64,000 nt of DNA, taken from positions 248,001 through 312,000 of the forward strand of contig NZ_VKKH01000006.1 in the NCBI RefSeq assembly GCF_007197995.1. The letters are read 5' to 3'. This document shows positions 26,670 to 44,235 of this stretch, in pieces. Every line of letters starts with the position of its first letter. The stretch's first letter is position 1. The stretch is from Aliiglaciecola sp. M165 (GTDB lineage Bacteria; Pseudomonadota; Gammaproteobacteria; Enterobacterales; Alteromonadaceae). The notes under the pieces were generated by a model. The model ran no database searches, was not told the origin of the DNA, and saw nothing but the letters and a program-made list of their open reading frames with translations. The translations under genes were made by a program, and so were the position numbers.

Positions 26670-27866
26670 ATGAAAAAACCGCCGTTGTTGTTCTTATGTC
26701 ATCGCATCCCTTTCCCGCCGAATAAAGGCGATAAAATTCGCTCTTTCAACATGTTAAAAGTTCTAAGTGAACATTTCGAAGTGTATCTCGGCAGTTTTGT
26801 TGATGATCCCTACGATTGGCAATTTACTGCAAAGTTGGATGATTACTGTCAAGAAGTATATTTACTCAATCAAAATAAGCTGTTCAGCAAGCTTAAGGGG
26901 TTGCGAGCATTCATTTCTGGCAGGTCAATTTCAGAAAAATACTATCAGCATCGCAAAATGCAGCGTTGGGTAGATAAAACGCTCGCAGACAAAAATATTG
27001 AAAATGTATTTATTTACTCTTCGGTAATGGCATTGTTCACACAAAAGCACATCGAGAATATTCATCAGGTAGTTGACTTTGTTGACGTTGACTCGGATAA
27101 GTGGCGGCAATACGCGTTAAGCAAAAGTGGCATAAGCAAATGGGTTTATGCCAGGGAGCATATAAAACTCCAGCAATTTGAAAATAAAGTCGCGAATCAA
27201 TCTGTTCATTCTATTTTTGTTTCTGGCCCTGAGGGCGAGCTGTTTAAACAGCAAATCCCTGACCCATTGCATTCCCGGGTGATTGGATTACTTAACGGCG
27301 TCGACGTAGAATATTTTGATCCTGAAGCCAAATTATCTGCGTCTGAGTTGCCTGAAATTGACGTCGTGTTTACTGGGGCTATGGATTATTGGGCAAATGT
27401 TGATGCCGTATTGTGGTTTGCAAAATATGTATGGCCGACAGTACGCGAAAAGCTACCTGAGGCAACGTTTTGCGTTGTCGGTGGTAATCCGACTGCACAA
27501 GTCAACGCACTTCACGGTAAGCATGGTATTACAGTGACTGGCCGGGTGGAAGATGTAAGAACTTACATTAAGCAGGGTAAGGTTTCTGTAGCACCACTAC
27601 AGATCGCAAGGGGTATTCAAAACAAAGTTTTAGAGGCAATGGCCATGGCAAAACCTGTGGTTGCAACATCAATGGCCATTGAAGGCATTGATGCGCGTAC
27701 TGACTCGATTGATATTTGTGATAGCGCCCAAGATTATGCTGATCATGTTTGTAAACGAATAGAAAACGTTGTGCGATCGGCAAACAACAGGGAATGGATT
27801 TTAAATAACGTAAGATGGTCGGAAACCATGGGTAGCCTACCCAGATTATTTAGGATGGATGCATGA
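26670..27866 (+). CDS. glycosyltransferase family 4, XrtA-associated (type 1)
   Basis: 398 residues. The N-terminal Rossmann half starts MKKPPLLFLCHRIPFPPNKG with the GDKIRSFNML segment. The C-terminal GT-B half has FTGAMDYWANVDAVLWFAK, VVGGNPT and the donor-site PLQIARGIQNKVLEAMAMAKPVV (read in two pieces), matching TIGR03087 proteins of exosortase A loci. The sugar donor is not predictable. ATG 26670 is used; the TTG just before it is in frame. Its stop overlaps the exosortase ATG (ATGA), so translational coupling is expected. Confidence 0.9.
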   Translation: MKKPPLLFLCHRIPFPPNKGDKIRSFNMLKVLSEHFEVYLGSFVDDPYDWQFTAKLDDYCQEVYLLNQNKLFSKLKGLRAFISGRSISEKYYQHRKMQRWVDKTLADKNIENVFIYSSVMALFTQKHIENIHQVVDFVDVDSDKWRQYALSKSGISKWVYAREHIKLQQFENKVANQSVHSIFVSGPEGELFKQQIPDPLHSRVIGLLNGVDVEYFDPEAKLSASELPEIDVVFTGAMDYWANVDAVLWFAKYVWPTVREKLPEATFCVVGGNPTAQVNALHGKHGITVTGRVEDVRTYIKQGKVSVAPLQIARGIQNKVLEAMAMAKPVVATSMAIEGIDARTDSIDICDSAQDYADHVCKRIENVVRSANNREWILNNVRWSETMGSLPRLFRMDA

Positions 27867-29305
27867 CATTTTTGAGAAGTAGTATATTTAAATATCTTGT
27901 TGGGCTTTTCGTGGTTTGGGGTGCTGTTTTTTACAACAGTATCGCTTCGGCAGTGGAGATTTGGTATAGGTCCGAAACCTTTGCACATTGTTTTATCATT
28001 CTGCCAATTTGCATCTACCTTATTAAGCTTAAGTGGGCTGCACTTAACAATGCGACGCTAAAGCCATCATACATCGCGCTCGTTTTTGTCGCAGGTACAC
28101 TATTAATCTGGCTGTTTGGCAGCATGGCGCAGGTCAAGGTCATTGAGCAGTACGCCGCCTTTGCCATGTTGCCCATGCTAATTTGGACAGTGATGGGCAA
28201 CCAGGTGGCAAGAATTTTACTTTTCGCTTCGTTTTTCTGGTTGTTTAGCGTCCCTGCAGGTGAGTTTTTAATTCCCCAGTTACAAGAACTTACTGCTGAC
28301 ATTACTGTGTTAGCCATTGAGTTAACTGGCATACCTGTGTATCGCGAAGGGCTTTATATTGCAATCCCCAATGGCTTGTTCGAAGTGGCTGTAGCCTGTT
28401 CAGGTATCCGCTATTTAATTGCATCGTTTACGCTCGGAACCTTGTTTGCTTATTTAAACTACAACAAGTTGAACAAACGCCTGATTTTCATTGCTTTTTC
28501 AATTGTCCTTCCGCTTCTAGCCAACGGTATTAGGGCTTACGGTATTGTAATGATCGCTTATTTGTCAGACATGAAGTATGCCACAGGTGTTGATCATTTG
28601 GTGTATGGATGGCTGTTCTTTGGCGTCGTTATCTTGATCATGTTCACCGTCGGTGGAAAATGGGCAGACCCTTTGCCGGAAAAAGAAATCTCAAGCAATC
28701 CAACTGGACCGAAAACCCCAGTGAATGAAATGCTCAAAGCTTTTTCCTTGATGGCAGCAGTTATTGCTGGTGCGTATATCTACAAAGTCGCTTTCGAAAA
28801 TGTAGTGAGTGACGTTCAACCCAACATTTCATCGATATTCTCCGCGGGTAAACCCATCGAAGACCAAAGCTGGTTGCCTAATTACCGCAATGCGTCAGAT
28901 GAACTTAGCGGTCATGATAGTGGCTTTGACTACTATTACGCTTATTACAATGCAAATCTGGAGGGCCAGGAATTAATTAATGCGGTTAATTCGCTCTACA
29001 ATATTGAGAATTGGTCAATTGTTAAAGATGACCGCAATGAACGTTACAGGGTAATTGAAATAACCGATGTGGTGGGGAACAGGCGATTGCTCGCTTATTC
29101 CTATGTGACCCCTTGGCACATGACCCACAAAGCCCTGGAAATCAAGTTGGTGCAGGCGATACAAGCCATTCTGGGACAGCCACAAAATGGCTTTGTATTA
29201 TTTATTTCCAAGCAACTTGAAAATGAAAAAGTTGATCGACAAGCCCTGGAGCAATCAGCGGATAAGCTATTTTCAGAAAAACTGAAGGCACTCGTGAATG
29301 ACTAA
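27863..29305 (+). CDS. xrtA: exosortase A fused to an EpsI domain
   Basis: 480 residues. Residues 1-270 are a multi-spanning exosortase with about eight membrane helices. The catalytic triad is visible: Cys in VAVACSGIRYL (near 177), Arg in LANGIRAYGIVM (near 216) and His in VDHLVYGWLFFG (near 250). Residues about 290-480 form an EpsI-like periplasmic domain after one further helix (AFSLMAAVIAGAYIYKVAF). Exosortase A is a transpeptidase-like cysteine enzyme that processes PEP-CTERM proteins at the inner membrane and is encoded with EPS genes. No PEP-CTERM substrate is in the window. The 3' end overlaps the next gene by 8 bases. Confidence 0.95.
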   Translation: MTFLRSSIFKYLVGLFVVWGAVFYNSIASAVEIWYRSETFAHCFIILPICIYLIKLKWAALNNATLKPSYIALVFVAGTLLIWLFGSMAQVKVIEQYAAFAMLPMLIWTVMGNQVARILLFASFFWLFSVPAGEFLIPQLQELTADITVLAIELTGIPVYREGLYIAIPNGLFEVAVACSGIRYLIASFTLGTLFAYLNYNKLNKRLIFIAFSIVLPLLANGIRAYGIVMIAYLSDMKYATGVDHLVYGWLFFGVVILIMFTVGGKWADPLPEKEISSNPTGPKTPVNEMLKAFSLMAAVIAGAYIYKVAFENVVSDVQPNISSIFSAGKPIEDQSWLPNYRNASDELSGHDSGFDYYYAYYNANLEGQELINAVNSLYNIENWSIVKDDRNERYRVIEITDVVGNRRLLAYSYVTPWHMTHKALEIKLVQAIQAILGQPQNGFVLFISKQLENEKVDRQALEQSADKLFSEKLKALVND

Positions 29306-30464: not shown

Positions 30465-32363
30465 ATGTGTGGCATTGCAGGCATATTTCATTTATCTGAG
30501 CAAAAACAAATTGATGCGGATTTAATCGCACAGATGAATGATCGACAAATACATCGAGGTCCAGACGCTGGCGATTATTTTTTCGACCCGGGTGTAGCGC
30601 TGGCACATAGGCGTCTATCTATCATCGACCTTGAGGGCAGCCCTCAGCCAATGCTTAGCGCCGATAAGCGTGCTTGTGTTGTGTTTAATGGTGAGATATA
30701 CAATTTTAAAGAGTTGCACAAAGAACTTTCTGAAAATGGTTACACATTCAACACTCACGGGGATACCGAAACCATCCTCAATGCTTGGTTAGAATGGGGC
30801 GAAGACTGCGTGCACAAGTTAAGAGGAATGTTTGCCTTTGCTATTTGGGATCGGGAAAAAGAGTGCTTGTTTATGGCTCGCGATCGCATGGGTATCAAAC
30901 CATTTTTCTATACATTGATGGACAATGGAGAGTTTGTTTTTGGCTCCGAACTAAAAGTCATTACTGCACACCCTCAGTTCGATAAACAGCTTCGTGACTC
31001 GACCATAGAAGACTATTTCACCTTTGGCTATGTTCCTGAGCCCTTTACCATTTATCAACATGCGTTCAAATTAGCGCCTGGGCATAAATTGACATTGCAA
31101 AAAGGCATGAAAAGCCTACCTGAGCCTGTTGAATATTGGGATGTGCCTGTCCATTACGAGACAGAAATGGAGCAAAGAGAAATTGATGAGCAGCTTGTTG
31201 AGCGTTTAAAAGAAGCTGTAGATATTCGTATGGTCGCCGACGTACCTCTGGGTGCGTTTTTGTCGGGTGGGGTAGATTCAAGCGCTGTTGTGGCCATGAT
31301 GTCACAGTTGCAAGACGATCCGGTGAATACCTGTGCAATCGGTTTTGATGTTAAAGAATTCAATGAAACTGAATTTGCCCAAATGGTTGCCGATCGTTAC
31401 AAGACTAATCACAGAGTAGAGACTGTCAGCCAAAATGACTTTGATTTGATCGATCATCTTGCGCACTTATACGATGAACCCTACGCTGACAGCTCGGCCA
31501 TTCCGACGTTCCGTGTGTGTGAATTGGCACGAAAACATGTCACCGTGGCACTTTCAGGCGATGGTGGTGATGAGTTGTTCGCCGGATATCGTCGTTACAA
31601 GATGCATCAAGCAGAAGAGCGGGTCAGGCGCACTTTGCCCTTAGGATTGCGTAAACCTTTATTTGGACCACTCGGTCGCATATATCCAAAGATGGACTGG
31701 GCGCCGAAGTTTTTGCGAGCCAAAACCACCTTTCAGTCGATGGCCATGGACACCGTGCAAGGTTATCACAACTCAATGTCTATCTTACGGGCAGACGAGC
31801 GGGCAAAATTGTTTTCCAAAGAATTCCAAACCGGCCTAAACGGCTATTCGTCTTTAGAAGTTTTTCGGAAATACGGAGACAAGGTTCAGCATTTAGACCC
31901 GGTTAAGATTGCCCAGTATATCGATTTAAAAACCTATTTGGTGGGTGACATACTGACTAAAGTCGACCGAGCATCCATGGCACACTCACTTGAAGTGCGT
32001 GTACCATTCATCGATCACAAATATGTCGAGTGGGCATTCAATGTACCTTCTTCACACAATGTCGAAAAAGGCATAGGCAAATATTCGCTTAAAAAAGCGT
32101 TGGAGCCACATTTGCCGGACGATGTGTTGTATCGCAAGAAAATGGGCTTTGCAGTACCCCTGGCTAATTGGTTCCGTGGTCCACTTAAAGACAGGTTGTT
32201 CGATGGGATTCTGTCCAATCAAATGACCTCCAGTGGTTACTTTAGCCAAAAGCAGCTCAAGACGCTGATTGATGATCATTTAAGTGGTAGACGGGATAAC
32301 AGCGCGCCTTTATGGACATTAATGATGTTCGAGTCATTCTTACGTCAACAGAAGGCAGCATAA
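30465..32363 (+). CDS. XrtA-associated glutamine amidotransferase (asparagine synthase type)
   Basis: 632 residues. The N-terminal glutaminase domain starts MCGIAGIFH with the catalytic Cys2, then RGPDAGDY, LAHRRLSIIDL and NGEIYNFKEL. The synthetase domain (about 230-600) has the PP-loop FLSGGVDSS near 267, then GDGGDELFAGYRRYK. The TIGR03108 subgroup is exosortase A-associated. It probably moves glutamine-derived ammonia onto a carboxyl group of a sugar (for example a uronic acid), giving an amide; the substrate is inferred. Both domains are intact, unlike the second homologue at 40661. The 3' end meets the next gene within three bases. Confidence 0.94.
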   Translation: MCGIAGIFHLSEQKQIDADLIAQMNDRQIHRGPDAGDYFFDPGVALAHRRLSIIDLEGSPQPMLSADKRACVVFNGEIYNFKELHKELSENGYTFNTHGDTETILNAWLEWGEDCVHKLRGMFAFAIWDREKECLFMARDRMGIKPFFYTLMDNGEFVFGSELKVITAHPQFDKQLRDSTIEDYFTFGYVPEPFTIYQHAFKLAPGHKLTLQKGMKSLPEPVEYWDVPVHYETEMEQREIDEQLVERLKEAVDIRMVADVPLGAFLSGGVDSSAVVAMMSQLQDDPVNTCAIGFDVKEFNETEFAQMVADRYKTNHRVETVSQNDFDLIDHLAHLYDEPYADSSAIPTFRVCELARKHVTVALSGDGGDELFAGYRRYKMHQAEERVRRTLPLGLRKPLFGPLGRIYPKMDWAPKFLRAKTTFQSMAMDTVQGYHNSMSILRADERAKLFSKEFQTGLNGYSSLEVFRKYGDKVQHLDPVKIAQYIDLKTYLVGDILTKVDRASMAHSLEVRVPFIDHKYVEWAFNVPSSHNVEKGIGKYSLKKALEPHLPDDVLYRKKMGFAVPLANWFRGPLKDRLFDGILSNQMTSSGYFSQKQLKTLIDDHLSGRRDNSAPLWTLMMFESFLRQQKAA

Positions 32364-34664: not shown

Positions 34665-34676
34665 AAGGGGATTGTG

Positions 34677-36032
34677 GTGTCACTTTATAGCAAAGTTGTT
34701 TCTTCGTTGTTATTCCCACTTCACGAGAAGCTGAAAAAGCACGATACCGTGTCAATCCGCAAAAAGCTGGAAAAAAGCCAGTGGCAATCACCCGAACAGC
34801 TTGTTGAAGCCCAACAACTTAGGTTGCAGACGTTCATCAAAACAATAACAGAGCATGTGCCTTTTTATCGCGACTTGTTTGCGCAAAAACAGCTTGCGCC
34901 GCAAGATGTAAAAACCGTTGCTGATCTCAGCAAGTTGCCTTTCCTTGACAAAGCGACGATTGCGGCCAATTTTGAAGCGTTAAAATCTGATATTGCAGGT
35001 CCATTAAGTCGCTTTAATACCGGCGGTTCTAGCGGACAACCACTGATTTTTTTATTAGGGAACGAACGTGTTTCTTATGATGTAGCAGAAAAATGGCGCG
35101 CGACACGTTGGTGGGACGTCGATATCGGCGACAAAGAAATTGTCGCTTGGGGTTCACCAATTGAGCTAGGTGCTCAAGATAAAGTGCGTTTGATCCGCGA
35201 TAAATTATTCCGTTCAGAATTAATTGCCGCGTTTGATCTCACTCCGGAAAAGATCTTGGCGTTCATTGAACAAATCCGTCAAACCAAACCTGCCATGCTG
35301 TTTGGTTACCCTTCAGTGTTTGATTTGTTAGCGAAAACCGCTGAAAAGCAAGGTATCAAGATGAACGATTTGGGCATCAAAGTCGCTTTTGTTACCTCGG
35401 AACGATTGTATCCGTATCAAAGAGAGAACATTGAACGAATATTTGGCTGTCCAGTTGCTAACGGTTATGGCGGAAGAGATGCCGGTTTTATTGCCCACCA
35501 ATGCCCACAAGGTGGAATGCACTTATCATTTGAAGATATTGTGGTTGAAATCATTGATAGAGAAGGCAACCCTCTACCACCTGGACAATCGGGTGAAATT
35601 GTCGTCACTCATTTAGGTACATCTGAATTTCCTTTTGTTCGCTACCGTACTGGGGATATCGCAGTGATGTCAGACAAACAGTGTGCCTGTGGGCGGGGAC
35701 TGCCTATGTTGGAATCCATTGAAGGGCGCAGCACAGACTTTGTGGTCGCCGCCGACGGCACCATACTTCACGGTTTGTCTTTAATTTATATTTTACGCGA
35801 CATGGAAACCGTCGATGCTTTCAAAATTGTGCAAGAAAGCAAGACATTGACCCGCGTACAGGTGGTTTCTAAAACGGGCAGTGTTGATCAGCAAATGCGT
35901 GATACAATTAGCCAAGGGTTTAAAGCACGATTGGGCAATGACGTGGAAATTGAGATTGAATCTGTGGATGACATTGCCCCTGAGAAGTCGGGTAAATATC
36001 GGTATGTCATTAGCAAGGTCGACATAACATGA
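34677..36032 (+). CDS. CapK/PaaK-type AMP-forming ligase in the EPS operon
   Basis: About 451 residues from GTG 34677; GTG 34674 directly before it is equally possible, both after AAAAGGGG. AMP-binding motifs are visible: FNTGGSSGQPLIF near 118 (the Ser/Gly-rich P-loop), FVTSERLYPYQ near 240, GYGGRDAG near 264, and FVRYRTGDI near 322. Cys residues in QCACGRGLPMLES (near 340) are typical of the phenylacetate-CoA-ligase-like CapK group. CapK-type proteins are linked to capsule biosynthesis, probably activating an acyl or amino acid substituent, but the substrate is unknown. Its TGA overlaps the ATG of the 28-codon ORF. Confidence 0.85.
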   Translation: MSLYSKVVSSLLFPLHEKLKKHDTVSIRKKLEKSQWQSPEQLVEAQQLRLQTFIKTITEHVPFYRDLFAQKQLAPQDVKTVADLSKLPFLDKATIAANFEALKSDIAGPLSRFNTGGSSGQPLIFLLGNERVSYDVAEKWRATRWWDVDIGDKEIVAWGSPIELGAQDKVRLIRDKLFRSELIAAFDLTPEKILAFIEQIRQTKPAMLFGYPSVFDLLAKTAEKQGIKMNDLGIKVAFVTSERLYPYQRENIERIFGCPVANGYGGRDAGFIAHQCPQGGMHLSFEDIVVEIIDREGNPLPPGQSGEIVVTHLGTSEFPFVRYRTGDIAVMSDKQCACGRGLPMLESIEGRSTDFVVAADGTILHGLSLIYILRDMETVDAFKIVQESKTLTRVQVVSKTGSVDQQMRDTISQGFKARLGNDVEIEIESVDDIAPEKSGKYRYVISKVDIT

Positions 36033-36115
36033 TTGACAGTTTATATCTGCTAGCAGACGTCATAGCACTTTATGTTTTGTTTCAGTGGTCTTCGAATCAG
36101 GAGGAAGACGAATGA
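36029..36115 (+). CDS. 28-residue membrane microprotein, translationally coupled at both ends
   Basis: ATG 36029 overlaps the TGA of the ligase gene as ATGA, and its own TGA overlaps the ATG of the next gene as ATGA. This double overlap is the strongest evidence that it is translated. The peptide has a Met-Ile-Asp-Ser lead, a hydrophobic helix at about residues 5-20 (LYLLADVIALYVLFQW), and an acidic tail SSNQEEDE. The end of the frame also carries the AGGAGG ribosome binding site of the next gene. It could be a tiny membrane subunit of the ligase-polymerase or of the AMP ligase. It may instead exist mainly to couple translation. No family is known to me. Confidence 0.7.
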   Translation: MIDSLYLLADVIALYVLFQWSSNQEEDE

Positions 36116-37473
36116 GTCGCGACCTGATCCTTGTCGGATTGCTGTTTATGGCAATCTATTTCAGTATCAAGCGCCCCTATATTGGGGTGGCTGCTTGGGT
36201 GTGGATTGCACTGACCGCACCGGCAAAATGGGCTTTTGGGTTTTCCAATGATTTCCGCCTTAACTTGACAATTGTTGTCGTGGCGGCGCTTTCTTATGTG
36301 TTTGTTCAAAAAAACAAACATTGGCGCATGAATAGCCTGAGCTTTCTGGTGATACTGTTTTGGATCTGGACGCTCATATCAACCGCCACCAACCAAACCT
36401 CATTTTCGTTTTACGTCTGGGATTACTGGAACCAATTTACCAAGGTTCTATTGCTCTACATTTTTGTGACGCTGTGTATTACTAAACGCTTGCATATAGA
36501 TACCTTAATCTGGGCGATTGTGCTGTCTATTTCCTCTTACGCGGCGATGGAAGCGGTGAAATTTATCTTATCCGGTGGTGGACATAGAATTGTTGGTAAA
36601 GCAGGAATTATTCAAGACAGGAATGACTTGGCCGTGGCCATTAATATGTGCATTCCTATGATCCTTTACCTCATCTCAATCACAGAGAACTTCTGGTTGA
36701 AGCGCGGTTTAAAAATTCTGTTTTTGATGAATATCTTAGCGATCATTGGTACCTATTCCCGCGGTGGCTTTATCGGTTTGTGTATTTTGTTTATCGCATT
36801 TTGGTGGACGTCAAAACGCAAAGTTCTCTATGCCGTGTTAGCCGCGATAGTCATTCCGTTATTTTTTGCATTTGCCCCCGGAGAATGGAAAGAAAGGCAA
36901 AACACCGTTTCTACCGCAGCGGCGCAAGATGGTTCCTTTATCGGACGATTGTGGGCGTGGAAAATATCTACTTTGATCGCAATGGACTACCCCTTGACCG
37001 GAGGCGGATTCCACGCTGTTAAAGATGGGCCATTATGGCGATATTACGCGCCGATGACGCCCAATTTTGGGCCAATTCAAACACCGCAGATCCCCAAAGA
37101 GCTTAAACCCAAAGCTGCGCACAATATTTATATGCAAGTGTTGGGTGATCATGGGTTTGGCGGATTATTCATTTTCTTAATGATCCTATTGGGTACGATA
37201 AGGCTGAATTTAAAAAATAAACGATGGGGGCTAGAGAACGATCAGCAGTGGTTGGTTAATTTGAGCCGCGCGCTCAACTTGTCCTTGGTGGGCTATTGTA
37301 TTACTGGTGGTAATGTAAGTTTGGCTTACTTTGATTTGTTCTATACCATAGTGGGCGTGGTATGCAGTATTCAGATACATATAGTCACTAAAAAGTACAA
37401 ACAGAAAGTAAAAAGTCCTCTGGCAGATGCACAAGCCGATGCGAGAAGACAAAAAGAACATTCTTATGGGTAG
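36112..37473 (+). CDS. O-antigen-ligase-like protein, XrtA-associated (O-glycosylation ligase)
   Basis: About 453 residues from ATG 36112, preceded by AGGAGG; this start overlaps the microprotein stop, and an upstream start would lie inside it. About ten to twelve membrane helices are seen. A large periplasmic loop (about 275-350) has the Wzy/WaaL signature GRLWAWKISTLIAMDYPLTG and HNIYMQVLGDHGF. TIGR03097 proteins with this pattern are found only with exosortase A. It may polymerise the repeat unit or transfer glycan to a protein. The C-terminal 30 residues are charged and cytoplasmic. It overlaps the next gene by 8 bases. Confidence 0.88.
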   Translation: MSRDLILVGLLFMAIYFSIKRPYIGVAAWVWIALTAPAKWAFGFSNDFRLNLTIVVVAALSYVFVQKNKHWRMNSLSFLVILFWIWTLISTATNQTSFSFYVWDYWNQFTKVLLLYIFVTLCITKRLHIDTLIWAIVLSISSYAAMEAVKFILSGGGHRIVGKAGIIQDRNDLAVAINMCIPMILYLISITENFWLKRGLKILFLMNILAIIGTYSRGGFIGLCILFIAFWWTSKRKVLYAVLAAIVIPLFFAFAPGEWKERQNTVSTAAAQDGSFIGRLWAWKISTLIAMDYPLTGGGFHAVKDGPLWRYYAPMTPNFGPIQTPQIPKELKPKAAHNIYMQVLGDHGFGGLFIFLMILLGTIRLNLKNKRWGLENDQQWLVNLSRALNLSLVGYCITGGNVSLAYFDLFYTIVGVVCSIQIHIVTKKYKQKVKSPLADAQADARRQKEHSYG

Positions 37474-38164: not shown

Positions 38165-38173
38165 GAGTCATTG

Positions 38174-39166
38174 GTGTCACGTAAACTCTTGTTATCTGGC
38201 GGCTGCCTCAGACCTAACGGTTTTGAACTAGGCGAAGGAAAGTATTACGGTAAAGCCAGTTTGGTGATGCTTGATACACAAACCGGTGAATTTTCTCAGG
38301 CATTGTCAAAAACAGAAGGCGGTGAAAATTATCCCAATGAACACCCTAATCTGCAGTTCACTGCAGGTTGTGTGGATGGCGACGATTTGTGGTTGCCCAC
38401 TGATACCGAAGTGCACAGATATTCTTTACCTGATTTGACGCTTAAGTCAGTTTTTTCTCACCCGTGTTTTCATAATATCCATTCGGTTCACCTGATTGAT
38501 GACAAAGTCGTTGCGACCTCTACAGGGCTCGATAATGTCGTGGTCATGAACAAAGAAACCGGTGATATTGATAAGATCATCAATACCCAAGGTAAAGATC
38601 CCTGGCATCGTTTCGACCAAGAAACCGATTATCGAATGGTGCATTCTACCCGTCCTCATGATAGCCACCCGAACTTCGTATTCAAATTGGACAAGGATCT
38701 TTGGGTTACTAGGTGTACCCAAGAGGATGCGGTTAACCTGAATAATGTCGAACAACGCATCGATATTAGTCAGGGAGGCGAGGTGAGTGTTCATGATGGG
38801 ATTTTGTGGCAAGACAAGCTGGTCTTTACTCGTGTGGACGGCAAATTGGTGTTCTGCGATCCGGTGAGTAAAACCCATATTGAAACATTTGACCCCTTTG
38901 GTAGTGCATTAAGCCGCCCAATTGGTTGGTGTCGTGGGCTTTACGCAGAGGGTGACATTTTTTATGTAGGCTATTCCAAACTTCGAAAAACTAATCTCAA
39001 AGCAAAGATTAAATTTTTGTCCAAAGGTAATTTTAAATATTCATCGGGTAACAACTCCCTGGTTGTGGCGCTAAATATTAAGACCAGAAAGGTGGAAAAC
39101 GTCTTCACCTCGCCAGATGGTTTGATAGACGCAATATATGGAATTATGCCTTTCCACTATGACTGA
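38174..39166 (+). CDS. propeller-like protein with paired His motifs, function unknown
   Basis: 330 residues from GTG 38174, with AGGAG seven bases before it; the TTG at 38171 is spaced worse. No signal peptide or membrane helix is seen. The sequence is a series of beta-strand pairs of the WD/NHL type (DDLWLPTDTEVHRYSLPD, KVVATSTGLDNVVVMNKE). It contains repeated His motifs, HNIHSVH (near 98), RPHDSHPNF (near 160) and SVHDGILW (near 196), suggesting a metal site. I do not recognise a family with confidence. It sits between the TPR gene and the flippase gene and overlaps the latter. Confidence 0.6.
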   Translation: MSRKLLLSGGCLRPNGFELGEGKYYGKASLVMLDTQTGEFSQALSKTEGGENYPNEHPNLQFTAGCVDGDDLWLPTDTEVHRYSLPDLTLKSVFSHPCFHNIHSVHLIDDKVVATSTGLDNVVVMNKETGDIDKIINTQGKDPWHRFDQETDYRMVHSTRPHDSHPNFVFKLDKDLWVTRCTQEDAVNLNNVEQRIDISQGGEVSVHDGILWQDKLVFTRVDGKLVFCDPVSKTHIETFDPFGSALSRPIGWCRGLYAEGDIFYVGYSKLRKTNLKAKIKFLSKGNFKYSSGNNSLVVALNIKTRKVENVFTSPDGLIDAIYGIMPFHYD

Positions 39167-40660: not shown

Positions 40661-42397
40661 GTGCAAGAAGGTAAGTGGCATAAAATAGTATCGAGCAGTG
40701 ATCTCGAACTCAACGTTCATCTTTCCTCAAGTGCTGTCATGCACAGCGACGATGATAATCATCTTGTTCTTTATGGTTATGCCTTATTGGACGAGAAAAA
40801 CGCTGACGCACAACAGGTGCTTTCTACTTATTTAGAATCATCTTCATTGTCTGATTTTTACTCAAGACTATCAGGTCAATTCACTTTAGTTATCGCCAAG
40901 CCAGATACCACGCCTGTTATCATTACCGACCAGCTGGCAACAAAACCCTGTTACTATTTTGCGCAAAAACAATCCCTGTACGTCAGCGATGAATTGCGTG
41001 CGATAAAAAGTTTACCCGAGGTTGAATTAACGGTTAGTAAACAGGCATTGTACAACTATTTGTATTTTCACTGTATCCCAGCACCGACGACCATTTATCA
41101 GAACGTTTTTAAGGTTGAAGCGGGCGCCATGGTGTCGTTCTCTAAAACGGGAGAGGCACACAAAACGGTGGCCTACAGCCCAGAATTTGCCAACACACTC
41201 TCTGATCACAACAAAGCTTACCAAGACTGTTTGAACACAGTTGAAAAAGCGGTTAAAAAACATGCTCAAGGTGAAGTAGGGGCCTTTTTGAGCGGAGGGT
41301 TGGACAGCTCAACTGTTTCAGGCATGTTGGCAAAAGTAGAGTCAAAGCAAGCAAAAACCTTTTCAATCGGCTTTGAAGTAGCGGGTTATGACGAAACAGA
41401 ATACGCGATGATCACTGCGAAGCATTTTGATACTGATCACAAGGTTTTGTATTTGAAACCTGATGCCGCCGCACAAGAGTTTGTGAAAGTTGCCCAATAT
41501 TTCGAAGAACCCTTTGGAAATTCATCGGCGATGGCGGCCTATTTCTGTGCAAAATTTGCCAAGGAAGATGGCGTCAACGTTTTACTGGCGGGTGATGGCG
41601 GAGATGAACTTTTTGCAGGTAATGAACGCTATGCCAAACAAAAAGTTTTTGAGCTGTATTTTAAGATGCCTAAATTTTTGGGCGAAACCATAAATGTGCT
41701 CTTCAATAATAGTCTGACCAGAAAAATACCTGGACTTAAAAAGGTTGCCAGTTATCTTGCGCAAGCTCGGGTAACATTGCCGGGTCGACTGCAAACCTAT
41801 AATTTTGTCAATCAGCTTGGGGTTGAAGCGATTTATTCGGCAGATTTGCTAAAAGAGGTTGATACGAACCTCCCTTTACAACAACTCCAGCAGCGCTACA
41901 ACGAGTGTAAGAGTGATGATCCCGTTGATGCCATGTTATATCTTGACTGGAAATTCACCCTAGCGGACAACGATTTAGTCAAAGTCAGTAAGATGTGTGA
42001 ATTGGCAGATGTAGAAGTCCGTTATCCACTGCTAGACAAGTCGTTAATTGATTTCAGTTGCACCATTCCTGCTGAGGTTAAATTGCCTGGCTCAGAATTA
42101 CGAGATTTTTATAAAAAAGCCTGTAAAGGCTTCCTCGCCGATGAAACGCTGACCAAAAGTAAACACGGATTTGGCTTACCCTTTGGCGCATGGATGAAAG
42201 AAAACGAAACGCTTAAGACCCTGACATTTGAAACTCTGAATAGCTTTAAGAAACGCAATATCGTCAAAGAAAGTCTTGTTGAGCAAGCTCTTGAAGCCCA
42301 CAACAGCGTGCATACCGGATATTTCGGCGAGCTTATCTGGATCATGGTGGTGCTGGAATTATGGCTGCAAAAAGAGGCCAGTGATTTTGTTGCATAG
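40661..42397 (+). CDS. asparagine-synthase-like protein with a dead glutaminase domain
   Basis: 578 residues from GTG 40661, after AGAGG. The synthetase half is intact: FLSGGLDSSTVSG near 210 and AGDGGDELFAGNERY near 310. The N-terminal domain keeps the fold pattern but has no Cys at position 2 (it is Gln), and no in-frame Cys lies upstream before the stop codon at 40625. Glutamine hydrolysis by this protein is therefore unlikely. It may take free ammonia or another amine, as do beta-lactam-synthetase-like relatives, to acylate or amidate a sugar carboxylate. The normal amidotransferase at 30465 could be a source of ammonia, but they are far apart in the operon. Confidence 0.82.
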   Translation: MQEGKWHKIVSSSDLELNVHLSSSAVMHSDDDNHLVLYGYALLDEKNADAQQVLSTYLESSSLSDFYSRLSGQFTLVIAKPDTTPVIITDQLATKPCYYFAQKQSLYVSDELRAIKSLPEVELTVSKQALYNYLYFHCIPAPTTIYQNVFKVEAGAMVSFSKTGEAHKTVAYSPEFANTLSDHNKAYQDCLNTVEKAVKKHAQGEVGAFLSGGLDSSTVSGMLAKVESKQAKTFSIGFEVAGYDETEYAMITAKHFDTDHKVLYLKPDAAAQEFVKVAQYFEEPFGNSSAMAAYFCAKFAKEDGVNVLLAGDGGDELFAGNERYAKQKVFELYFKMPKFLGETINVLFNNSLTRKIPGLKKVASYLAQARVTLPGRLQTYNFVNQLGVEAIYSADLLKEVDTNLPLQQLQQRYNECKSDDPVDAMLYLDWKFTLADNDLVKVSKMCELADVEVRYPLLDKSLIDFSCTIPAEVKLPGSELRDFYKKACKGFLADETLTKSKHGFGLPFGAWMKENETLKTLTFETLNSFKKRNIVKESLVEQALEAHNSVHTGYFGELIWIMVVLELWLQKEASDFVA

Positions 42398-43416: not shown

Positions 43417-44235
43417 ATGTTCATTTCTGATTCAATCGTCTTTGTTGAACTCCATAAAACCGCCTGTACTCATATTGACAAATTGTTGAGTGAAATTGTA
43501 GGTGGGAGGCTTGAAGGTAAACACAACAAAGCTTACAAAGAGTTATTTTCACCCAAACGCCATTTTCTCGGTTCGGTTCGAAATCCTTGGGAATGGTATG
43601 TGTCTTTATGGGCTTTTGGATGTGAAGAAAAGGGCGGACTCTTTATGCACGTCACTAAATCCAATTGGAATCTTGAAGGGGTTTCTCTTAAATACGGATA
43701 TCAATATTTTTTATTGTCGGTGTTTGCCAAGTTCAGTAAAAACCCTGACAAATGGAAAGAAGCCTATCGCGATGTTAATGACCCCAGCTGCTTTAGAATG
43801 TGGTTGAAGTTGTTGCACGACCCTAATCGAAGCTTTGATTTTGGCGAGCACTATGCGTTGGCCCCCATGCACAATTTTGCAGGGCTGCTTACCTATAGAT
43901 ACTTTAATTTGTTTTGCAGCATTAAGTCCGACGACCGACCCTTTGAACAACTTAATGATTACTCACAACTAAAGCAGTTTAATGATGAACATTGTTTTAT
44001 CAGTCATTTTATTCGCAATGAAAACCTAGAAGAAGATTTTATCGCTGCTTTGGAAGCCACCGGGTTTGCCTTAACTCCTGAGCACAAAGATCGAATTTTT
44101 AGCAGCAAAAAAACCAATGCCTCCGAGCACGACCGAAATATTGCACGCTTTTATGACCAGGAAACCGATGAAATCATTCAAGAGCGAGAGCGATTTATCA
44201 TTGAAAAGTTTGCCTACAAATCGGTATTAAGTTAA
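43417..44235 (+). CDS. sulfotransferase-like protein
   Basis: 272 residues. The 5'-phosphosulfate-binding loop is recognisable but degenerate as VELHKTACTHIDKLL (the usual HKTGGTSL). The 3'-phosphate motif is SVRNPWEWYVSLW near 50. The remainder is an alpha-helical lid. It resembles family-2-type sulfotransferases of bacterial polysaccharide loci. The sugar acceptor is unknown. It is the last gene of the plus-strand operon. A second, more canonical PAPS enzyme is encoded at 48747. Confidence 0.72.
   Translation: MFISDSIVFVELHKTACTHIDKLLSEIVGGRLEGKHNKAYKELFSPKRHFLGSVRNPWEWYVSLWAFGCEEKGGLFMHVTKSNWNLEGVSLKYGYQYFLLSVFAKFSKNPDKWKEAYRDVNDPSCFRMWLKLLHDPNRSFDFGEHYALAPMHNFAGLLTYRYFNLFCSIKSDDRPFEQLNDYSQLKQFNDEHCFISHFIRNENLEEDFIAALEATGFALTPEHKDRIFSSKKTNASEHDRNIARFYDQETDEIIQERERFIIEKFAYKSVLS

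Follow-up and report, generated by a model that had tools for sequence, protein, structure and literature searches.

Background

Several membrane enzymes, among them oxidases, pumps and the eukaryotic oligosaccharyltransferase, have subunits that consist of a single helix. DltX (PF12459) is a small membrane protein of a locus for surface-polymer modification. We know of no such micro-subunit for the ligase class with the WaaL fold. The smallest subunit of the oligosaccharyltransferase, Ost4, is reported to bind the catalytic subunit Stt3 tightly and to stabilise it (PMC7226087), and CydX/CydS, FixQ/CcoQ and TorE/NapE are described as small respiratory subunits (PMC4325964, PMC6134056).

Here we analyse a stretch of 64,000 nucleotides from Aliiglaciecola sp. 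M165 (the window), in which a 28-codon frame, of a size easily missed on account of its shortness, precedes the gene of an exosortase A-associated O-glycosylation ligase (TIGR03097). Neither for TIGR03097 ligases nor for the O-antigen ligase WaaL, whose fold they share, did a literature search conducted at abstract level, mostly in open-access sources, return an accessory microprotein. The proposed role resembles that of Ost4, the smallest subunit of a polytopic membrane enzyme of glycan transfer, and those of CydX/CydS, FixQ/CcoQ and TorE/NapE, microproteins of one helix that each assist a larger membrane enzyme; with DltX it shares the nature of a small membrane protein and the setting of a surface-polymer locus. 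The respiratory subunits have other partner enzymes, and Ost4 is bound to Stt3, whereas the present microprotein would bind a WaaL-fold ligase.

Results and discussion

The frame and its neighbours

The microprotein gene occupies positions 36029-36115 of the window (28 codons and a stop; all features of the window given here lie on the forward strand). The frame is open and translates as MIDSLYLLADVIALYVLFQWSSNQEEDE, with a hydrophobic helix at approximately residues 4-21 followed by an acidic tail. Its start shares an ATGA (36029-36032) with the TGA stop of a PaaK-like AMP-binding ligase (hereafter AMP ligase, 34674-36032), and its own TGA stop shares a second ATGA (36112-36115) with the ATG of the TIGR03097 ligase (36112-37473). 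The Shine-Dalgarno sequence of the latter, AGGAGG (36099-36104), falls within the final codons of the microprotein, 7 nt 5' of the ligase ATG, and a weaker Shine-Dalgarno-like AAGG (36015-36018) is found 10 nt 5' of the microprotein start. The double overlap, the AGGAGG of the next gene within the last codons and the single hydrophobic helix with an acidic tail had all been described in the initial annotation, and they stand as described.

The downstream gene belongs to TIGR03097 (PEP_O_lig_1; 349.2 bits versus a curated cut-off of 188.1) and combines a DUF5935 with a Wzy_C domain (PF04932, 1.4e-21). The best PDB match of its predicted structure (mean pLDDT 93.5) in Foldseek was WaaL (7tpg, chain 7tpg_B; E 3.6e-7, probability 1.00, TM 0.59/0.65), followed by chains of the divisome complex FtsWIQLB (E 4.1e-3 and worse). 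Eight residues, including H337, R217, R262 and R279, are invariant across an alignment of 69 ligases (A2, a random draw from which two rows were then dropped); these His and Arg residues may correspond to the conserved catalytic His/Arg of the WaaL fold. WaaL-type ligases work on the periplasmic side of the membrane. A domain scan of the neighbours identified the whole locus as a polymer/exosortase locus, whose exosortase (EpsH domain and DUF3485) is encoded at 27863-29305.

A conserved coding sequence

A search for TIGR03097 covered 98 relatives, 395 genomes of the family and 369 genomes of the class (overlapping sets), and 190 loci were gathered, duplicates counted, seven of them without a usable ligase start. 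These loci contain 26,345 small frames; when an iterated peptide profile, seeded with peptides of the MIDS/MLDS type, was applied to all of them, every match with E < 0.2 ended at a ligase start, and the first match away from any ligase start had E = 0.21; the E-values of the members are partly a matter of construction, because these members trained the profile. In 23 disjoint pairs, pooled pN/pS was 0.20 in the microprotein frame (pS 0.541, pN 0.109) versus 1.03 and 1.54 in the two shifted frames, with 95, 50 and 223 differences at codon positions 1, 2 and 3, respectively. Since the calculation left out the start codon and the final two codons, the overlaps do not cause this signal. The sequence is thus not drifting freely, the outcome that the initial annotation had named as fatal to its reading. 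On sequence evidence, 36029-36115 is a real, conserved gene. That it should be a chance open frame between two genes, an idea to which a length of only 28 codons might lend itself, has a practically negligible probability in view of the conserved sequence, the conserved place and the codon constraint.

In the gammaproteobacterial set the microproteins measure about 26-54 residues (median 28). Among the 92 loci that carry one, a Shine-Dalgarno-like match of at least 4 bases is located 5' of 75 microprotein starts (versus 869 of 5,000 random positions), microprotein stop and ligase start overlap by 1-11 nt in 70, and gaps as large as 72 nt exist. The double ATGA had been taken as making translation of the frame almost certain; the overlaps are real and the frame is constrained, but the argument is weaker than was claimed, as the overlap varies in length and the look-alikes described below are spaced or divergent. 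The same data bear on the proposal that the frame is a translational coupling leader, which would only deliver ribosomes to the ligase start and whose peptide would have no function. The 70 overlapping loci and the position of the ligase Shine-Dalgarno inside the window frame are what such a leader would lead one to expect. Nevertheless, strong codon constraint persists with the start and last two codons left out, acidic and polar residues are conserved, gaps reach 72 nt, and the alphaproteobacterial look-alikes are spaced from the ligase (4 loci) or encoded on the opposite strand (7 loci), so that we consider this explanation very unlikely.

The microprotein follows the ligase

When 175 distinct ligases were placed on a tree, every member of two clades (79/79 in the main clade and 13/13 in the second) had the microprotein and none of the 83 others did, a distribution requiring 2 changes versus 58 with shuffled labels; the search for an equivalent frame before TIGR03097-type genes, proposed in the initial annotation, thus found it in the orthologous loci. 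Of the 92 labels of presence, 74 were assigned by a profile match with E < 0.5 located at the ligase start, a further 17 by a small hydrophobic frame in that position and one (L112) by hand, its peptide lying at -72, 72 nt away. In the second clade all 13 labels derive from the hydrophobic-frame criterion or the hand label and none from the profile, and two loci with such a hydrophobic frame (L056, L156) were judged to be due to chance and scored absent among the 83. A wider, later profile scan of the gammaproteobacterial loci without microprotein returned nothing below E = 0.4.

A second profile (A1), built from 51 of the 92 peptides with the second clade unrepresented, gave 74 matches below 1e-5 in the 395 family genomes, counted also as 74/395 genomes, and all 74 were located adjoining and upstream of a TIGR03097 match, as judged by eye; one of ten weaker matches (G149) was at a ligase. 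The genome searches score part of the first-look candidates, for instance 19 of 45 in G002. With about 26-54 residues and one hydrophobic helix, the microprotein could also pass for a small toxic or stress peptide that has nothing to do with the ligase; against this, 74 out of 74 strong matches adjoin a TIGR03097 ligase, and we consider such a function extremely improbable. In a phylum-wide search, the gammaproteobacterial profile, which misses most alphaproteobacterial look-alikes, matched 7 of 359 genomes, all of them already in the set. No relative of the ligase was found in the viral contigs searched.

The upstream gene is an AMP ligase in 54 of the 92 microprotein loci, a glycosyltransferase in 16 and another gene in 18, with none found in 4; furthermore, among the 83 ligases that lack the microprotein, 8 are preceded by an AMP ligase, within 14 nt in 7 of these 8. 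The AMP ligase was consequently rejected as the partner, and so was a TPR gene located downstream, which recurs in only 7/78 main-clade and 0/13 second-clade loci. Because one genome of the genus of the window (G002) has a ligase from the other clade and no profile match, the microprotein label follows the ligase and not the species. Within each of five single genera (g1, g14, g17, g30 and g45) TIGR03097 ligases of either kind were observed (loci L008, L013, L046, L053, L056, L042-L044, L047-L049, L051 and L052), and ligases therefore appear to have been exchanged between species, the microprotein being present or absent accordingly. As far as sequences can tell, the ligase is the partner of the microprotein, and the linkage to a subset of ligases is strict.

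These data weigh on the explanation that the gene encodes a small membrane protein serving the exosortase, a flippase or the AMP ligase and is merely parked beside the ligase. The locus as a whole is one of polymer and exosortase functions and binding to the ligase is predicted, both of which leave room for it; however, neither the AMP ligase nor the TPR gene is a constant neighbour, and presence tracks the ligase clade even within one genus, which renders it unlikely. Replacement by the microprotein of a helix lost from the ligase was also considered and rejected: excluding the far outgroup, median ligase lengths are 439 in the main clade, 430 in the second and 439 without microprotein, and mean numbers of hydrophobic segments, from a crude hydropathy count, are 7.9, 8.5 and 7.8. 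Given this similarity, the microprotein is no general requirement of the ligase family.

Known families

The window peptide has no match in NCBIfam, Pfam or PHROGs, and for five peptides from other lineages no Pfam or NCBIfam model scored above its cut-off. Profile A1, compared with the PDB up to E = 10, gave no relative, only two unrelated matches (best E 0.26), Ost4 not being among the matches. Among the 51 members of A1, Pfam CydS weakly matches nine (best 8.4e-4) and not the window peptide, Pfam FixQ matches one (0.025), and NCBIfam HmcD matches two (best 0.0054), together with a few other entries; the weak CydS and FixQ matches may be due to composition, by which short hydrophobic helices can match. 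Identity with CydX/CydS was rejected, since the window peptide has no profile match and its neighbours are an AMP ligase and a TIGR03097 ligase, not cytochrome bd oxidase genes. DltX was likewise rejected, with two of the 51 members matching (best 0.023) and the scanned neighbours including no dlt gene.

Anatomy and topology of the peptide

An acidic residue occupies the D3 column in 87 of the 92 peptides. Lysine and arginine are absent from the first 8 residues in 86/92 and occur at residues 18-26 in 80/92, a distribution that, under the positive-inside rule for the orientation of membrane proteins, places the N-terminus outside and the C-terminus inside; the most likely topology is thus predicted to be single-pass, N-out/C-in. 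At position 10 the main clade has D or N in approximately 71% of its peptides (weighted), and 42% of second-clade peptides have His there. When periods of 85-115 degrees were scanned for a helix-like pattern of conservation, 62, 6 and 40 of 3,000 shuffles were as strong in three segments; the best period is 110 degrees, and with the angle fixed at 100 degrees the observed value is reached by 833 of 5,000 shuffles. At one locus (L072) microprotein and ligase are in frame, and the read-through product, with the stop read as Gly, was folded with AlphaFold; the microprotein is helical in this model at pLDDT 40-50 (residues 1-30, which 5 of 36 alignment rows cover), a confidence at which the model speaks neither for nor against docking.

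Look-alikes in Vibrio, Photobacterium and Alphaproteobacteria

On plasmids of Vibrio alfacsensis, the TIGR03097 ligase is preceded by a 29-residue peptide with an ATGA overlap, which is missing from the gene tables of three plasmid records (these tables are known to be incomplete). Counterparts have 47 residues in Photobacterium, 53 in Sphingomonas, where the peptide is annotated as a hypothetical protein, and 61 in Qipengyuania. On a Qipengyuania citrea plasmid (L230), the 61-residue frame lies at 2302-2487 of the forward strand, and the gene table has a hypothetical protein at 2275-2430 of the opposite strand. A tree of 203 ligases contains a branch (SH-aLRT 91) parting 103 microprotein-free ligases from 99 with microprotein plus L261, an alphaproteobacterial ligase without it. 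The later trees omit eight far outgroup rows as well as L228, L231, L241 and L264 (duplicates, split or weak).

Among Sphingomonadales ligases of group f228 the microprotein was found in 22 of 23, L261 being the exception. The f228 peptides show a pN/pS of 0.38 (10 pairs) versus 1.11 and 1.60 in the shifted frames; His is at position 11 in 17/17 typed, and 22/22 fit an anchor pattern that demands this His. Nearly all of them (L229, L230, L258-L260, L296-L312) display a mid-helix His and, beyond the helix, a D/E-L-D-x-E/D motif. In g524, a second group of Alphaproteobacteria, the microprotein is present in 10/10 examined, with a pN/pS of 0.21 (9 sequences, 4 pairs; 9/10 were anchored, and the split ligase of G1180 was left out). 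Shifted-frame values range from 1.06 to 1.60 across both groups.

An iterated profile further detected look-alikes 49-86 nt upstream of the ligase in four loci (L269, L270, L279, L333) and divergent ones, on the opposite strand, in seven (L267, L271-L275, L277), with E-values from 1e-8 to 0.08 (L272 only 0.08), L269, L277 and L279 being themselves seeds. Alphaproteobacterial look-alikes therefore exhibit three layouts beside the ligase: overlapping, spaced and divergent. Under the widest labelling, to which these 11 loci were added, 137 of 273 ligases have a microprotein, with 5 changes on the tree versus 91.5 for shuffled labels. A simple profile-free criterion, applied to the upstream side, is passed by 106/137 loci labelled present and by 4/136 others, and in its control, the 400 nt downstream of the ligase, by 7/136 others. 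Locus L325 contains what looks like a further divergent copy (beginning MEINMVAALMFGMIALVFYVIYGSV; ligase-oriented position -158, opposite strand) that the profile missed and the simple criterion accepts; it is still scored absent, and other loci so scored may conceal more. The gammaproteobacterial profile does not recover the f228 peptides, and it is from place and anatomy that we infer one family, with a single origin of the gamma- and alphaproteobacterial microproteins.

A proposed subunit of the ligase

The microprotein is probably a single-pass inner-membrane protein that acts as an accessory subunit of the ligase encoded by the next gene, the exosortase A-associated enzyme with the WaaL fold. 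The initial annotation had suggested a membrane subunit of the glycan ligase, and the parts of that suggestion concerning coding, conservation and linkage to the ligase are upheld, the gene following the ligase and not the AMP ligase; the microprotein would bind the ligase and may affect its activity. The N-terminus, with the acidic residue 3, would lie on the periplasmic side and the charged tail in the cytoplasm. One face of the helix (acidic 3, polar D/N 10, L17 and W/A 20-21) would pack against the ligase, and this packing would stabilise or tune the enzyme. Overlapping genes and an internal Shine-Dalgarno sequence would let subunit and ligase be made together. The ligase L261, which lacks the microprotein within a clade that bears it, counts against the subunit reading.

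A broader interpretation, possible but doubtful, would see an ancient micro-subunit of WaaL-fold ligases in Gamma- and Alphaproteobacteria, arranged in three layouts, with an acidic residue positioned at the mouth on the periplasmic side and a polar one inside the membrane (D/N, or His in other lineages) shaping activity or acceptor choice. If true, it would constitute a bacterial counterpart of Ost4 for WaaL-fold ligases. Because the ligases divide cleanly into those that have the microprotein and those that lack it, the role of the extra helix can be tested, and heterologous expression of such loci may omit a needed component.

Further observations on the loci

The window encodes at 40661-42397 a second asparagine-synthase-like amidotransferase, related to TIGR03108 but below its cut-off, which starts with MQEGKW; as it lacks the MCGIAG N-terminus found in its paralogue at 30465-32363, its glutaminase half may be inactive. 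The genes at 38171-39166 and 43417-44235 have no Pfam match at 0.001, and the former matches TIGR03032 weakly. Finally, two loci carry an interrupted ligase: in L119 (G202:C3) it is broken by an in-frame stop, and in L231 (Vibrio alfacsensis pVa1) it is annotated as two genes; in both, the upstream microprotein is still open.
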